From: Croceibacterium selenioxidans
GTDB taxonomy: Bacteria; Pseudomonadota; Alphaproteobacteria; Sphingomonadales; Sphingomonadaceae
Direction of reading: 5' to 3'
Assembly (NCBI RefSeq): GCF_018599195.1
Contig: NZ_JAHFVK010000001.1
Location: 434,001-498,000, forward strand
Length of the DNA stretch: 64,000 bases
Shown: piece by piece, positions 1-7,248 of the stretch
Numbering within the stretch: the stretch's first letter is position 1
Layout of the letters: the number at the start of each line of letters is the position of its first letter
Position numbers and translations under genes: made by a program
The notes under the pieces: generated by a model
Told to the model about the DNA's origin: nothing
The model's input: the letters and a program-made list of their open reading frames with translations, nothing else
The model's database searches: none

Positions 1-498
1 GGCTCGATGATGCGTAACGAGACTTACTACTTCGCCCGCGCCGGCACCTTCCTCGAGCGGGCGGACAACACGGCGCGTATTCTCGACGTGAAGTATTACC
101 TGTTGCTGCCGTCGCTCTCCTACGTCGGTACAGTCCTCGACACCGCGCAGTGGGACAATGTGCTGCGGTCCCTGTCCGGAGAGCGCGCTTATCGCTGGCT
201 TAACGCGGGGCGGATGGATGCGCGCTCGATCGCCCAGTTCGTCGTGCTCGACGACCGTTTTCCGCGCAGCCTGGCGTTTTCCTATGCGACAATGCGCGAG
301 AATCTCGGGGCGTTGGCGCGGCTGCACGGTCACGAGGGGCCGGCCGACGCGCTGATGCGGCAAGTCGATCAGCAGCTGACGGGCAAGACCATCGAAGAGA
401 TCTTCGACCAGGGGCTGCACGAGTTCCTGCTGCAGTTCATCCTTCGCAACCGTTCGGTCGCTACGGCGATTGCCGAGCAATATCGTTTCACCGCCTGA
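1..498 (+). CDS. Alpha-E domain protein, 5' end cut by the window
   Basis: This is the C-terminal 165 residues of an alpha-helical alpha-E protein (COG2307 type); the reading frame is open to base 1, so the N-terminal half lies outside. Family proteins are about 310 residues and nearly all helical. The visible part has the typical YFARAGTFLERADNTARIL helix and the conserved end helices. It is followed after 17 bases by a transglutaminase and then by an Anbu peptidase. These three families, with a circularly permuted ATP-grasp ligase, form a recurrent bacterial operon thought to make and process a peptide tag. The ATP-grasp gene would be expected just upstream, outside the window. The molecular role of alpha-E is unproven. 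Confidence 0.88.
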   Translation, partial: GSMMRNETYYFARAGTFLERADNTARILDVKYYLLLPSLSYVGTVLDTAQWDNVLRSLSGERAYRWLNAGRMDARSIAQFVVLDDRFPRSLAFSYATMRENLGALARLHGHEGPADALMRQVDQQLTGKTIEEIFDQGLHEFLLQFILRNRSVATAIAEQYRFTA

Positions 499-515
499 GG
501 TCGGGACTGACAGCC

Positions 516-1331
516 ATGCGCCTCGCCATTCGCCATACGACACGGTACCGCTTCGCGGAGCCGGTTGCCTACGGGCTCCAGCGGCTGCGGCTCATCCCCA
601 AGGGAACGCAGGGGCAGACCGTTCTCGACTGGACGATGGAATACGAAGGCGCGCGCGAAGAGCTGAGTTACGACGATCAGAATTTCAATCACGTGACGCT
701 GGTGTCGGTGATCGAGGGGGCAACGGAAGTCGTCATCTCCTGTCGGGGTACCGTCGTTACCGAAGATCGGGCCGGTGTCCTTGGACAGCACGCGGGCCAT
801 CTGCCCTTATGGGCCTTTCTCGGCCATACGAAGCTCACTCAACCCGGTCCGCGCATCAAGCAGCTCGTGGCCTCCGTGGGGCACAGCGACGATGGCGTTG
901 TGGCGACGTTGCACAATCTTTCCGCCGCCATCCGCGAGCGTGTAATCTACGATACCGGTCACACGATGGTTGATACCACCGCCGAGGACGCAGTGGCCGC
1001 GGGCCATGGGGTGTGCCAGGATCACGCGCAGATATTCATCGCCGCAGCGCGATGCCTCGAAGTTCCCGCGCGTTATGTCAGCGGCTACCTGATGATGAAC
1101 GACCGCGTGGAGCAGGAAGCGACCCATGCGTGGGCGGAAGCCTGGCTCGATGGCCTCGGCTGGGTTGGCTTCGACGTTTCCAACGGTATCAGCCCCGATC
1201 CGCGCTATGTCCGCCTTGCCACCGGACGCGATTATGCCGATGCGGCTCCCATCTCTGGCATAAACTATGGCGCCGTGACCGCGGACCTGTTTGTCGCACT
1301 GGCAGTGGAACAGCAGACCGTACAACAGTAA
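516..1331 (+). CDS. Transglutaminase-like cysteine protease of the Anbu operon
   Basis: A 271-residue protein with the bacterial transglutaminase N-terminal beta domain (about residues 1-90) and a transglutaminase core (about 140-225). The papain-like triad is visible: Cys167 in GHGVCQDHA, His204 in EATHAWAEAW and Asp220 in GWVGFDVSNG. No signal peptide is seen, so it probably acts in the cytoplasm, either as a peptidase or as an amide-forming enzyme. It lies between the alpha-E gene (17 bases upstream) and the Anbu gene (66 bases downstream), matching the known co-occurrence. Substrate unknown; the family and triad are clear. Confidence 0.9.
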   Translation: MRLAIRHTTRYRFAEPVAYGLQRLRLIPKGTQGQTVLDWTMEYEGAREELSYDDQNFNHVTLVSVIEGATEVVISCRGTVVTEDRAGVLGQHAGHLPLWAFLGHTKLTQPGPRIKQLVASVGHSDDGVVATLHNLSAAIRERVIYDTGHTMVDTTAEDAVAAGHGVCQDHAQIFIAAARCLEVPARYVSGYLMMNDRVEQEATHAWAEAWLDGLGWVGFDVSNGISPDPRYVRLATGRDYADAAPISGINYGAVTADLFVALAVEQQTVQQ

Positions 1332-1397
1332 CAGAGGGCGGCGGCCGATCGGCCGCGCAACTCGGGCCACTCGACAGGGCAGCAACAGGGGCAGGAC

Positions 1398-2162
1398 ATG
1401 ACGTATTGCGTAGGGATGAAGCTCGACGACGGTCTCGTCCTGATGAGCGATACCCGTACCAATTCGGGCGTCGACAACATCTCGGTCTTTCGCAAGATGT
1501 TCCATTGGACGAAACCGGGCGAGCGGCTGATCGCGATGATGACGGCCGGCAATCTCGCGACGACCCAAGCGGTCATCAGCAAGCTCGAAGAGCGATCGAA
1601 AGCGCCGGACGACAGGCAGAACTCCTTGCTCGAACTGCCAACCATGTTCCAGGTCGCCGCCGAAATCGGAAAGCTCCTGCGAGAGACCGTGCGCGAGATT
1701 CAGGACGAAAACGGCATGCAGGGCATGGGGCGCTTCACGGCCTCCATCATCGTGGCCGGGCAGATCAAGGGCATGGAGCCACGGCTGTTCATGATCTATC
1801 CGGAAGGAAACTTCATCGAAGCCAGCTTCGACACGCCCTTCTTCCAGATCGGAGAGACCAAGTACGGTCGCCCGATCCTGGTCCGCGGTTACGACAAGGA
1901 CATGAGCTTCGAGGACGCGGTCAAGCTGCTGTTCCTCAGCTTTGACTCAACGCTCAAGGCGAACCTTTCGGTGGGACTTCCATTCGATCTGCTGGTCGTC
2001 AAACGAGATGAGTTCAAACCGCTGCACGAGCGCCGGATCGAGTACGGCGATCCGTATTTTGACTCGATATCATCGGGCTGGGGCGAAGCGCTGCGGAGCG
2101 CATTCCATGTGCTTCCGGACTACACTTTTTACCAGAACGCGCCAGCCGCGAAAACTAAGTAG
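1398..2162 (+). CDS. Anbu proteasome-type peptidase
   Basis: A 254-residue Ntn-hydrolase of the Anbu (ancestral beta subunit, COG3484) family, related to HslV and the 20S proteasome beta subunit. Removing Met1 exposes Thr as the N-terminal nucleophile (MTYCVG). Asp18 (SDTR) and Lys33 (FRK), counted with Met1, sit where the proteasome Asp17 and Lys33 lie. No propeptide is present, as usual for Anbu. Anbu is known to form open helical or ring assemblies without a dedicated AAA partner. It ends the run alpha-E - transglutaminase - Anbu; an ATP-grasp peptide ligase is the expected fourth partner. Start chosen at the ATG that gives the Thr N-terminus. Confidence 0.93.
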   Translation: MTYCVGMKLDDGLVLMSDTRTNSGVDNISVFRKMFHWTKPGERLIAMMTAGNLATTQAVISKLEERSKAPDDRQNSLLELPTMFQVAAEIGKLLRETVREIQDENGMQGMGRFTASIIVAGQIKGMEPRLFMIYPEGNFIEASFDTPFFQIGETKYGRPILVRGYDKDMSFEDAVKLLFLSFDSTLKANLSVGLPFDLLVVKRDEFKPLHERRIEYGDPYFDSISSGWGEALRSAFHVLPDYTFYQNAPAAKTK

Positions 2163-2254: not shown

Positions 2255-2333
2255 TTCGTAACCATAGGGATTCACACCGAAACCGATGGGCCTCCTGATG
2301 CACGAGTGCGTTGTCGGCGGCATCGTGTTGTCC

Positions 2334-3062
2334 ATGAAAAGGACGACCCTTCACATCGTTGGCGGCGACAGCCGCTCCCGCGCCGAGCAGGCCCGTATCG
2401 CTTTCGCGTTGGGCCATCATGCGGAAGTCTATTCAGAGTTCGAGGAACTGGTCGACAGACCGCCGAACGAAGGGATCATCATTGCAGCCGATGACGGTGA
2501 GGCGGGCATGACCGGTTCGCTCATCAAGAAGTTCGGCGAACACGGCATCTGGCTTCCGGTGGTGGTTGCCTCTGACGAGCCGAAGATCGAGCGGGCCGTT
2601 TCCGCGATCAAGGCCGGTGCTATCGACTATCTGACTCTACCGCTGGAGATGGGCAGCTTCGTGCGTCGCCTGGCGGGAATCATCGCAGAGTCCCGCGAAT
2701 ACTCCGAACGTCGCCGGCGCGAAGTCTTCGCCCGCCGTTCGATCGCCATGCTCAGCCGTCGTGAACATGAAGTGCTCGAGCTGCTGAGCGCGGGGCGGTC
2801 CAACCGCGAGATCGGCAGCCTGCTCGACATCAGCCCGCGCACGGTTGAAATCCACCGTGGGAATATGATGACCAAGCTTGCCGCGGGTCACATTGCCGAC
2901 GCGATCCGCCTGTGGCTCGACGCCCAGTTCGAACTGCCTGCGACGCTGCCCGCGAACGCGAACGACGACATCAAGATCGACCAGGCGGTCGTTGCCGGAC
3001 GCATCCGGTCAAAGCGGACCACGGCACGCGCGCTGCGCGAGGCCCATCGTCAGCGGCAGTAG
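2334..3062 (+). CDS. LuxR/FixJ-type response regulator with degenerate receiver
   Basis: A 242-residue two-domain regulator. Residues 1-118 resemble a receiver and residues about 136-195 are a LuxR-type helix-turn-helix (LSRREHEVLELLSAG, then SNREIGSLLDISPRTVEIH). In the receiver, Asp53/Asp54 are near the phosphorylation position, but the N-terminal acidic pair is reduced to GGD and the conserved KP switch is TLPLE, with Leu in place of Lys. Activity may therefore not depend on normal phosphorylation. The ATG at 2334 is preferred because the frame before it lacks domain similarity. The 3' end overlaps the convergent extensin-like gene by 13 bases. No sensor kinase is nearby. Confidence 0.8.
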   Translation: MKRTTLHIVGGDSRSRAEQARIAFALGHHAEVYSEFEELVDRPPNEGIIIAADDGEAGMTGSLIKKFGEHGIWLPVVVASDEPKIERAVSAIKAGAIDYLTLPLEMGSFVRRLAGIIAESREYSERRRREVFARRSIAMLSRREHEVLELLSAGRSNREIGSLLDISPRTVEIHRGNMMTKLAAGHIADAIRLWLDAQFELPATLPANANDDIKIDQAVVAGRIRSKRTTARALREAHRQRQ

Positions 3063-4470: not shown

Positions 4471-5601
4471 ATGTCTGAGATTACGTTGCCGACGCGCAAA
4501 CCCGCGCGTCCGTTCTTTTCTTCCGGTCCCTGCGCGAAGCCGCCGGGATATTCCCCTGACAAGCTCGCCACCGAATCGCTGGGCCGCTCGCACCGCGCCA
4601 AGATCGGCAAGTCGCGCCTTCAATACTGCATCGACCTGATGCGCGAAGTGCTGCAGCTGCCCGATACGCACCGCATCGGTATCGTGCCCGGATCCGACAC
4701 CGGCGCCTTCGAGATGGCCATGTGGACCATGCTCGGCGCTCGCGGTGTGACGGCGCTTGCTTGGGAAAGCTTCGGTGAAGGTTGGGTCACCGATGTCGTC
4801 AAGCAGCTCAAGATCGAAGCGAACGTGATGCGCGCCGATTACGGCCAACTCCCCGACCTCGACAAGGTCGACTGGTCGGATGACGTCCTGTTTACCTGGA
4901 ACGGCACCACGTCCGGCGTTCGCGTTCCCGACGCCGAATGGATCCCGGCCGACCGGCAGGGCCTCAGCTTCGCCGATGCCACCAGCGCCGTGTTCGCCTA
5001 CGACATCCCGTGGGACAAGATCGATGTCGCCACCTTCTCCTGGCAGAAGGTGCTGGGTGGCGAGGGTGGCCATGGCGTGCTGATCCTCGGCCCGCGCGCC
5101 GTCCAGCGGCTGGAGGAATACACCCCCTCCTGGCCGCTGCCGAAGGTGTTCCGCCTCATGTCGAAGGGCAAGCTCGCTGAAGGCGTGTTCAAGGGCGAAA
5201 CCATCAACACTCCCTCGATGTTGGCGGTCGAAGACGCGATTTGGGCCCTCGAATGGGCAAAGGGTCTCGGCGGCCTCAAGGGCCTTCAGGCTCGATCCAA
5301 CGCCAACGCCGCTGCCCTCGACAAGATCGTGGCGGAGCGTGACTGGCTCGGTCACCTCGCGGTCGACCATGGTACCCGTTCCAAGACCTCGGTCTGCCTG
5401 ACTGTCGAGGGCGCCGACGCCGATTTCATCAAGGCCTTCGCCGGCCTGCTTGAGAAGGCCGACGCCGCTTACGACATCGCCGGATACCGCGACGCCCCTC
5501 CGGGCCTGCGCATCTGGTGCGGCGCGACCGTCGACACGGCGGATATCGAAGCGCTCGGTCCCTGGCTCGATTGGGCCTGGGCTTCGCTCAAGGCGGCCTG
5601 A
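4471..5601 (+). CDS. serC: Phosphoserine aminotransferase
   Basis: A 376-residue class V PLP aminotransferase that converts 3-phosphohydroxypyruvate and glutamate to phosphoserine, step two of serine biosynthesis (and an equivalent step in de novo pyridoxal phosphate synthesis). The PLP lysine is Lys193 in SWQKVLGGEGGHG. The N-terminal substrate region RPFFSSGPCAKPPGY is typical of the alphaproteobacterial SerC type. The ATG at 4471 follows AAGGAG with good spacing; an in-frame ATG 24 bases upstream has no ribosome site. serA follows 63 bases downstream, so the two are likely cotranscribed. Confidence 0.95.
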   Translation: MSEITLPTRKPARPFFSSGPCAKPPGYSPDKLATESLGRSHRAKIGKSRLQYCIDLMREVLQLPDTHRIGIVPGSDTGAFEMAMWTMLGARGVTALAWESFGEGWVTDVVKQLKIEANVMRADYGQLPDLDKVDWSDDVLFTWNGTTSGVRVPDAEWIPADRQGLSFADATSAVFAYDIPWDKIDVATFSWQKVLGGEGGHGVLILGPRAVQRLEEYTPSWPLPKVFRLMSKGKLAEGVFKGETINTPSMLAVEDAIWALEWAKGLGGLKGLQARSNANAAALDKIVAERDWLGHLAVDHGTRSKTSVCLTVEGADADFIKAFAGLLEKADAAYDIAGYRDAPPGLRIWCGATVDTADIEALGPWLDWAWASLKAA

Positions 5602-5664
5602 ACCCGTTTCCGGCGGACCTGAGGGTCCGCCGAACCACTCAATTGCTATTTGCAGGAGGCTTTC

Positions 5665-7248
5665 ATGACGAAGCCCAAAGTTCTCATTTCCGACAAAATG
5701 GATCCCAACGCCGCGCGCATTTTCGAAGAGCGGGGCTGCGAAGTGGACGTCATCACCGGCAAGACCCCGGAAGAGCTCAAGGAAATCATCGGCCAGTACG
5801 ACGGCCTGGCGATCCGCAGCTCGACCAAGGTGACCAAGGAAATCATCGACGCGGCCACCAACCTCAAGGTGATCGGCCGCGCCGGCATCGGCGTCGACAA
5901 CGTCGACATCCCCTATGCCAGCTCCAAGGGCATCGTGGTGATGAATACCCCGTTCGGCAACTCGATCACCACCGCCGAGCACGCTATTGCGCTGATGTTC
6001 GCGCTGGCTCGTCAGCTTCCGGAAGCCAATGCCCAGACCCAGGCGGGCCTGTGGCCGAAGAACGGCTTCATGGGCGTCGAAGTCACTGGGAAGACTCTCG
6101 GCCTGATCGGCGCCGGCAACATTGGCTCGATCGTCGCCGACCGGGCCCATGGCCTGCGCATGAAGGTCGTTGCCTACGATCCGTTCCTGTCGCCCGAGCG
6201 TGCGGTTGAGATGGGCGTGGAGAAGGTCGAGCTCGACGACCTGCTGGCCCGTGCCGACTTCATCACGCTGCACACGCCGTTGACCGACCAGACCCGCAAC
6301 ATCCTCAGCCGCGAGAACCTCGCCAAGACCAAGAAGGGCGTGCGCATCGTCAACTGCGCTCGCGGTGGTCTGGTCGACGAGGAAGCGCTCAAGGATTTGC
6401 TCGATTCCGGCCACGTCGCCGGTGCCGCGCTCGACGTGTTCGTGACCGAGCCGGCCAAGGAGCACGCGCTGTTCGGCACGCCGAACTTCGTGGCGACCCC
6501 GCACCTCGGCGCCTCGACTAACGAAGCGCAGGTCAACGTCGCGCTGCAGGTCGCCGAGCAGCTCAGCGACTACCTGGTCAATGGCGGCGTCACCAACGCG
6601 CTCAACGTGCCTTCGCTGAGCGCCGAAGAGGCGCCGAAGCTCAAGCCCTACATGGCGCTGGCCGAAAAGCTGGGCAGCCTGGTCGGCCAGCTGACCACCG
6701 GCTCGGTACCGCGGGTTTCGATCCACACCGAAGGTCATGCCAACGAGCTCAATATCAAGCCGATGGTTGCCGCCGTGCTGGCCGGGTTCCTGCGCGAGCA
6801 GTCGGACACGGTGAACATGGTCAACGCCCCGTTCCTGGCCAAGGAGCGCGGCATCGAGGTGCGTGAAGTGCGGACCGAGAAGGAAGGCGATTACCACACG
6901 CTGCTGCGCGTTTCGGTCAAGACCGATGCGGGTGAACGCTCGGTTGCGGGCACGCTGTTCAGCAACGCCGAGCCGCGCCTTGTCGAACTGTTCGGCATCA
7001 AGGTCGAGGCCGAACTGGCGGGCCACATGATGTACATCGTCAACGAGGACGCTCCGGGCTTCATTGGCCGCATCGGCACGCTCCTGGGTGAAAACGGCAT
7101 CAACATCGGCACTTTCAACCTTGGCCGTCGCGAAGCCGGTGGCGAGGCGGTATTGCTGCTGTCTGTCGACGGCGAAGTTCCGGCCCACGTGCTGGAGAAG
7201 GCCCGCACCCTGCCGGGCGTCAAGCGCGCCATGGCGCTGGCGTTCTGA
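5665..7248 (+). CDS. serA: D-3-phosphoglycerate dehydrogenase
   Basis: A 527-residue enzyme that oxidises 3-phosphoglycerate to phosphohydroxypyruvate with NAD, the committed step to serine. It has the long form: catalytic and Rossmann domains (GLIGAGNIGSIVADRA), the active-site signatures NCARGGLVDEEAL and HLGASTNEAQ, an intervening domain, and a C-terminal ACT domain (about 455-527, HMMYIVNEDAPGFIGRIG) for feedback control by serine. The start at 5665 has AGGAGG five bases upstream. It is the distal gene of serC-serA and ends just before a strong hairpin. Confidence 0.96.
   Translation: MTKPKVLISDKMDPNAARIFEERGCEVDVITGKTPEELKEIIGQYDGLAIRSSTKVTKEIIDAATNLKVIGRAGIGVDNVDIPYASSKGIVVMNTPFGNSITTAEHAIALMFALARQLPEANAQTQAGLWPKNGFMGVEVTGKTLGLIGAGNIGSIVADRAHGLRMKVVAYDPFLSPERAVEMGVEKVELDDLLARADFITLHTPLTDQTRNILSRENLAKTKKGVRIVNCARGGLVDEEALKDLLDSGHVAGAALDVFVTEPAKEHALFGTPNFVATPHLGASTNEAQVNVALQVAEQLSDYLVNGGVTNALNVPSLSAEEAPKLKPYMALAEKLGSLVGQLTTGSVPRVSIHTEGHANELNIKPMVAAVLAGFLREQSDTVNMVNAPFLAKERGIEVREVRTEKEGDYHTLLRVSVKTDAGERSVAGTLFSNAEPRLVELFGIKVEAELAGHMMYIVNEDAPGFIGRIGTLLGENGINIGTFNLGRREAGGEAVLLLSVDGEVPAHVLEKARTLPGVKRAMALAF

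Follow-up and report, generated by a model that had tools for sequence, protein, structure and literature searches.

Comparative evidence on a separable Anbu beside the ATP-grasp, Alpha-E and transglutaminase-like genes of Croceibacterium selenioxidans

At the start of a 64,000-nucleotide stretch of the Croceibacterium selenioxidans genome (assembly GCF_018599195.1, contig NZ_JAHFVK010000001.1, positions 434,001 to 498,000 of the forward strand, in our numbering G000:C1:434001-498000; hereafter the window), genes for an Alpha-E protein, a transglutaminase-like protein and the proteasome relative Anbu follow one another, and the gene of an ATP-grasp ligase precedes them. Comparison with related genomes led us to the reading, held with a probability of roughly 0.6, that ATP-grasp, Alpha-E and transglutaminase (the trio) form an all-or-none unit and that Anbu is a separable companion with substrates of its own. 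The observations behind it are gene content, gene order and residues, the all-or-none occurrence of the trio, intact Anbu proteins in genomes without the trio, and, in several lineages, transglutaminases that have lost their Cys. This pattern argues that Anbu would not simply be the remover of a tag made by the trio.

Distribution of the trio and of Anbu

Among the 298 genomes of the family sample, Anbu was found in 248 and the ATP-grasp in 252: 238 genomes carried both, 10 Anbu only (G052, G053, G075, G106, G107, G129, G191, G199, G229 and G268), 14 the ATP-grasp only and 36 neither. Nine of the Anbu-only genomes are at least 97% complete, and G268 is 73% complete. In 32 discordant or double-negative genomes, Alpha-E was detected in all 13 ATP-grasp-only genomes (the fourteenth, G159, 84% complete, lay outside this test), in none of the 10 Anbu-only genomes and in none of nine genomes with neither gene. 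Strong Transglut_core matches (E < 1e-13, a threshold chosen after the values were seen) showed a similar distribution (13/13 ATP-grasp-only, 22/22 with both, 0/10 Anbu-only and 1/14 with neither, the one being G049) and thus tracked the ATP-grasp in 58 of 59 genomes (35/35 with and 1/24 without it). Since both Alpha-E and the strong transglutaminase follow the ATP-grasp, and Anbu does not, the trio behaves as one unit. Searches with the transglutaminase protein as query gave matches in 8/8 trio-positive and 0/10 Anbu-only genomes. Complete loss of transglutaminases together with the trio was rejected, since the Pfam profile still found weak matches in six of the 10 Anbu-only genomes (best 2.7e-11), indicating that only the strong class was lost with the trio.

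The sites of the trio-less Anbu genes were compared with those of relatives, gene context being read for the fetched loci alone, which were picked by hand. In the lineage of the window the order is UvrB (opposite strand), an alpha/beta hydrolase, the four operon genes and a FixJ-like regulator; in L055 (G199, of the same genus as the window), L068 and L069 (G191 and G268) the trio is absent and only Anbu stands between hydrolase and regulator, at about 150 bp or less from the hydrolase. Part of a Sphingomonas-like branch has a CtrA-like regulator, the four operon genes, Bpt and a threonine dehydratase (CtrA-operon-Bpt order in L114, L116, L120, L129, L135, L136 and L147), and here CtrA and Anbu have no trio between them in G107, G053 and G229 (L072, L073 and L075). 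The names UvrB, hydrolase, CtrA, Bpt and threonine dehydratase were assigned by us on reading the sequences, without database search; we take Bpt to be a transferase family of the N-degron pathway and the CtrA-like protein to be a cell-cycle regulator. Six trio-less Anbu genes thus lie where relatives carry the trio. Because the assemblies are contiguous at these sites, the absence of the trio is not a contig gap; with flanks like those seen around the trio in relatives, its loss is the plain reading. In G129 (L074) Anbu adjoins Bpt, with no CtrA within reach, and in G075 and G052 it stands in different surroundings. Moreover, nine Anbu loci were remote, that is, apart from the trio in a genome that has the ATP-grasp (L117-L119, L123-L125, L131, L142 and L149); five of these, all from a single genus (g32), have no other Anbu match in their genomes.

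The nine intact trio-less proteins retain the catalytic residues of Anbu. In a set of 69 Anbu proteins (51 from operons, 9 trio-less and 9 remote, without the 40 loci added later for the transglutaminase), T1, D17, K32, G50 and L52 were present in 69/69 and T20 in 68/69. Ratios of non-synonymous to synonymous substitution rates (dN/dS; Nei-Gojobori with Jukes-Cantor correction) for pairs of trio-less Anbu genes were 0.114 (G191-G268), 0.136 (G053-G129), 0.299 and 0.307, with 0.019-0.470 for operon pairs and 0.057-0.253 for remote ones. A quick maximum-likelihood tree (LG+G4) was built from the 69 proteins; on it six changes are needed for the trio-less state, of which starred branches force at least five, and three for the remote state. 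G191 and G268 form a starred clade, and G053, G129 and G229 a clade with a value of 94; from these trio-less clades it seems that Anbu persisted through speciation after the trio had been lost, suggesting that it remains useful once the trio is gone. Within a narrow base of literature we found no report of a trio-less Anbu or of a Cys-less operon transglutaminase, either of which may already be known.

The four-gene operon and its proteins

The features of the operon within the window, and of the gene that follows it, are:

1..498, + strand, C-terminal part of Alpha-E (residues 150-314 of the 314-amino-acid protein; PF04168, 145 bits)
516..1331, + strand, transglutaminase-like protein, 271 amino acids (Bact_transglu_N and Transglut_core)
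1014..1016, + strand, codon of catalytic Cys167, present in the sequence (missing in 20/168 operon homologues)
1125..1127, + strand, codon of catalytic His204 (kept in 133/133 sequences)
1173..1175, + strand, codon of catalytic Asp220 (kept in 133/133 sequences)
1398..2162, + strand, Anbu, proteasome-like Ntn hydrolase, 254 amino acids (PF00227, 56 bits)
1401..1403, + strand, codon of Thr1, directly after the start Met (T1 in 69/69 Anbu)
1449..1451, + strand, codon of Asp17 (69/69 Anbu)
1494..1496, + strand, codon of Lys32 (69/69 Anbu)
2286..3062, + strand, FixJ/LuxR-type regulator, the neighbour after Anbu in this lineage and outside the operon proper

A sequence-only reading of the window had placed Alpha-E, transglutaminase and Anbu in one run, and this was borne out: all three frames lie on the + strand and their Pfam matches exceed the Pfam cut-offs. 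It had also predicted a ligase just upstream of base 1 and held that the absence of an ATP-grasp gene there would speak against it; a circularly permuted ATP-grasp gene was in fact found immediately upstream of Alpha-E (positions 6092-7522 of L002, the stretch read upstream; 476 amino acids), its PF14403 (CP_ATPgrasp_2) match at C1:432314-433447 covering profile positions 1-374 of 374 with 547 bits and being the sole one in the genome. The order is therefore ATP-grasp, Alpha-E, transglutaminase, Anbu, with intergenic gaps of 31, 17 and 66 bp, and, with the ATP-grasp gene directly upstream, the locus is by its sequence a complete four-gene Anbu operon of known type and an ordinary member of it. 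Pattern scans over L002 5900-10500 gave no excess of promoter-like sites (1 against 1.2 in shuffles) or terminator-like sites (3 against 3.6). The Anbu operons of Pseudomonas aeruginosa and Yersinia bercovieri share with the window the four-gene order, the M-T start and T1, D17 and K32; the alpha/beta hydrolase upstream and the FixJ-like regulator downstream are neighbours seen in the lineage of the window.

The transglutaminase-like protein matched Transglut_core with 79.1 bits and Bact_transglu_N with 64.5 bits, and its nearest solved sequence was 3isr (E 2.1e-14), in an alignment that spans Cys167, His204 and Asp220. The complete Cys-His-Asp triad that had been read from the window protein is present there, and it does not hold as a constant trait of the operon. 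Among 133 transglutaminases of the loci fetched up to then Cys167 was replaced in 12, whereas His204 and Asp220 were found in all 133. With 40 more loci, Cys was present in 147/158 and absent in 11/158 loci with trio and Anbu, and present in 1/10 and absent in 9/10 loci with the trio without Anbu, giving 20/168 without Cys; the replacing residues were Pro, Ala, Gly, Thr, Tyr, Val and Ser. In this count L082, a second and probably fused copy of G217, was left out; L079, gapped in the larger alignment, was counted as Pro from the 133-sequence set; L265, L081 and L241, with an Alpha-E gene behind which no transglutaminase was found, stood outside it; and one identical Alpha-E pair (L049 and L209, probably the same genome twice) was included. 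On the best quick tree of Alpha-E the Cys state changes seven times and Anbu three times. A link between loss of Anbu and loss of Cys (9/10 against 11/158) was not claimed, the tree holding just three independent pairs. Some Cys losses look recent, because G094 (Pro) and G156 (Cys) are closely related. Transglutaminase dN/dS was 0.06-0.58 for six Cys-less pairs and 0.05-0.31 for five Cys-bearing pairs, suggesting that the Cys-less proteins are retained, perhaps under somewhat looser constraint. On the simplest reading they would have a non-catalytic role, with catalysis supplied by paralogues. Two more strong transglutaminase-like genes lie elsewhere in the window genome, away from the operon (L255, G000:C1:302000-315000, and L254, 252000-265000). 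One of them adjoins genes that we would call, from their sequences, sugar-catabolism-like and YjbQ-like; none of the neighbours of these two paralogues names a substrate.

Carboxylate activation and amide-bond formation are the established activities of ATP-grasp enzymes. The operon ATP-grasp is alike over nearly its full length to the circularly permuted ATP-grasp 3n6x, its nearest solved relative (query residues 4-476 of 476, 654.7 bits, E 6.4e-196); 3n6x, from Methylobacillus, was deposited under a putative name, glutathionylspermidine synthase, and we know of no activity for it. The full Alpha-E gene (L002 7554-8498, 314 amino acids) is likewise the sole match in the genome, and the part of it inside the window covers positions 140-293 of 294 of PF04168, which is the C-terminal half. 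The two halves of Alpha-E are homologous: their local alignment score was 73, compared with 29.8 +/- 5.2 for shuffled sequences (0/1000 shuffles reached 73), profile comparison gave a probability of 96.8% (E 2.4e-10), and a motif recurs as YLERAENTAR and FLERADNTAR. The homologue from Croceibacterium salegens was modelled with AlphaFold2 on 47 sequences; the model was helical throughout (mean predicted local distance difference test score 90.2), so that the family is predicted to be all-helical, with two homologous halves derived from an internal duplication. Foldseek returned no match of the model in the PDB at E <= 0.001, and a sequence search for a solved Alpha-E yielded a single row at E 0.33. 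The best VIA-align 2 row among the Foldseek top 1000 was 4akk (NasR; Z 9.0, root-mean-square deviation 5.9 over 233 residues), a likeness that was not used, as it may be just a common helical arrangement according to the tool's own caution. Second Alpha-E matches were seen in 12 of the 13 ATP-grasp-only genomes, mostly in open frames of about 850 amino acids; such second copies in relatives are probably fused to an ATP-grasp, as in L082 (G217:C1:179939-188853), and in several genomes they lie near a protein of more than 1100 amino acids with a transglutaminase domain, as in the Burkholderia cluster described below.

Anbu begins with M-T-Y-C, in line with the sequence-only reading, and Thr1 is predicted to be freed as nucleophile by removal of the Met. 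The five best PDB matches (E 1.3e-82 to 2.6e-61) are all Anbu proteins, three under that name and two (5nyw and 5lox) under the name Peptidase; among the five are also the designed Anbu 5loy (E 1.3e-82), 5nyj (E 6.7e-72) and 5nyf. The sixth match is an archaeal proteasome subunit (E 1.8e-07), and HslV was absent among the matches at E <= 0.001. Another contig of the window genome carries a second gene of the proteasome family, presumably HslV. The residue numbers used here (Thr1, Asp17, Lys32/33) follow PMC6376114 and PMC5666114, and the latter gives the Anbu-1 S1 pocket as T20-F30-T48-L52-S55. By this pocket the window protein is of subtype Anbu-1, sharing T20, F30, T48 and L52 with known Anbu-1; residue 55 is Thr, whereas it is Ser in P. 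aeruginosa. Anbu, a relative of the proteasome, has been given a very early place in evolution (PMC5666114). As described in PMC6376114 and PMC5666114, P. aeruginosa Anbu binds epoxomicin and MG132, and the proteasome substrates offered in the assays covered there were cleaved by none of the Anbu proteins assayed.

The FixJ-like regulator matched a LuxR-type DNA-binding domain; because no Pfam receiver domain was matched at E 0.001, its receiver part looks atypical. It adjoins Anbu also in the three trio-less loci L055, L068 and L069.

Proposed roles and rival explanations

All chemical steps of our reading, as well as the independence of the Anbu substrates, are our inferences. The trio would most likely make, and in part reverse, an amide bond on a small molecule, a peptide or a protein. 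In this scheme the ATP-grasp would activate a carboxylate as an acyl phosphate, Alpha-E would be its inseparable helical partner of two repeats, and the transglutaminase-like protein, in most lineages a hydrolase or transferase working through its Cys, would be a Cys-less partner elsewhere. Anbu would be an N-terminal-threonine hydrolase acting on substrates of its own, usually but not necessarily working beside the trio. A further step, to which we give somewhat less than an even chance, is that Anbu, rather than removing the tag of a tag system, is an autonomous hydrolase hitchhiking with a separate, all-or-none amide-forming module whose transglutaminase can work without Cys, the invariant His and Asp having a Cys-independent role.

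Several points weigh against a separable Anbu. Anbu normally travels with the trio, as judged from its association with the ATP-grasp in the family sample (odds ratio 61, uncorrected for kinship) and from a second sample, in which 73 of the 80 loci show the full four-gene order. This sample was obtained by scanning contigs with a 10-sequence Anbu alignment and keeping the best 80 of 572 confirmed stretches; it is mostly from Alphaproteobacteria, is non-random as the loci are the best-scoring ones, and shares at least one genome with the family sample. Its exceptions are three loci that end at contig ends (L222, L235 and L252), two that are rearranged (L241 and L248), L195, from a metagenome bin, in which ATP-grasp and Alpha-E are absent, and L223, in which Anbu stands alone downstream of pyruvate-dehydrogenase-like genes. 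In L195 a hydrolase gene runs into the transglutaminase gene (4844-5916), which may be a deletion or a misassembly. Four of the remote Anbu genes (L117-L119 and L149) are second copies beside another Anbu. The Anbu of G106, left out of the residue, dN/dS and tree counts, is reduced to a 3' remnant. The tree was made by a quick method and on Anbu itself, so that transfer could also have produced the pattern, and it does not separate loss of the trio from gain. Moreover, a cell without the trio could make the same tag by another enzyme, and Anbu may be slowly decaying where the trio is absent.

The last point, in its strong form, says that a trio-less Anbu is a transient relic, uninformative on function. 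The remnant in G106 and the minority status of the trio-less state (10/248 Anbu genomes) would fit, but the catalytic residues are kept in 9/9 intact trio-less proteins, dN/dS is 0.11-0.31 for pairs in which both are trio-less, and the state is held by two clades, and we therefore think this explanation improbable. A peptide-tag cycle, in which the ATP-grasp (with Alpha-E) puts a peptide or amino-acid tag on proteins and the transglutaminase and Anbu remove the tag or degrade its carrier, is close to the system named in the sequence-only reading. The source given there, a proposal from comparative genomics, is right: PMC5666114 and PMC6376114 both cite it. The presence of the ligase in 238 of the 248 Anbu genomes (238/298 in all), the gene order of the second sample and the release of phosphate from ATP by the Y. 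bercovieri ATP-grasp protein (PMC6376114) agree with it. Membership of Anbu in such a system is nevertheless weakened by the nine intact trio-less Anbu proteins with their low dN/dS, six of them at trio sites of relatives, and the cycle as a whole by the 10 genomes with Anbu without ATP-grasp and the 14 with the converse. In addition, the pull-downs reported in PMC6376114 gave no specific interaction among the operon proteins, co-expression as described in PMC5666114 yielded no different form of Anbu, and the authors of the latter argued that their own results make a role of Anbu in peptide synthesis less likely. The distribution speaks against Anbu strictly depending on the tag-making enzyme, and the functional picture of the sequence-only reading is about half right. 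We regard the tag cycle as unlikely.

A link to nitrogen would be compatible with a separable Anbu and does not exclude it: the trio would build and break a nitrogen-rich amide compound in nitrogen shortage, and Anbu would add protein turnover at that time. In Burkholderia cenocepacia the cluster I35_5080-83 groups an ATP-grasp (DUF404/DUF407), an Alpha-E (DUF403) and a transglutaminase-like protein as the window does and is controlled by NtrC and sigma54 (PMC5491218); it differs in including a large transglutaminase-domain protein, and Anbu is not named for it. In marine metagenomes the trio domains occur together with domains of urea metabolism (PMC3597751), and PMC5666114 cites a rise of Anbu in Pseudomonas putida under nitrogen limitation. 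This literature concerns other bacteria, and the lineage of the window differs from the B. cenocepacia cluster in having no clear sigma54 signal. A scan for -24/-12 sites (10 consensus positions) in the regions upstream of 125 ATP-grasp genes showed no clear excess over shuffles: at least 8/10 matches were found in 9/125 regions against 13.4 expected, and 9/10 matches in 4/125 against 1.3 expected, two of the four on the reverse strand; the best site of the window genome reached 6/10. We give the nitrogen explanation a low probability. The Rim and Rlo systems of Pseudomonas, in which an ATP-grasp protein is paired with a peptidase and, in Rlo, a transglutaminase domain described as inactive is present, offer an analogy only (PMC12239564): the peptidase is an aspartic protease, and the transglutaminase domain of Rlo is membrane-bound.

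The function of Anbu has usually been argued by guilt by association with its operon, and here this association splits. The comparative result is useful because it turns guilt by association into a testable separation, pointing experimenters to Anbu substrates outside the ligase pathway and offering natural trio-less and Anbu-less genomes as ready-made knock-outs or control strains. The loss of Cys in several lineages is a warning against treating the operon transglutaminase as always being an enzyme.

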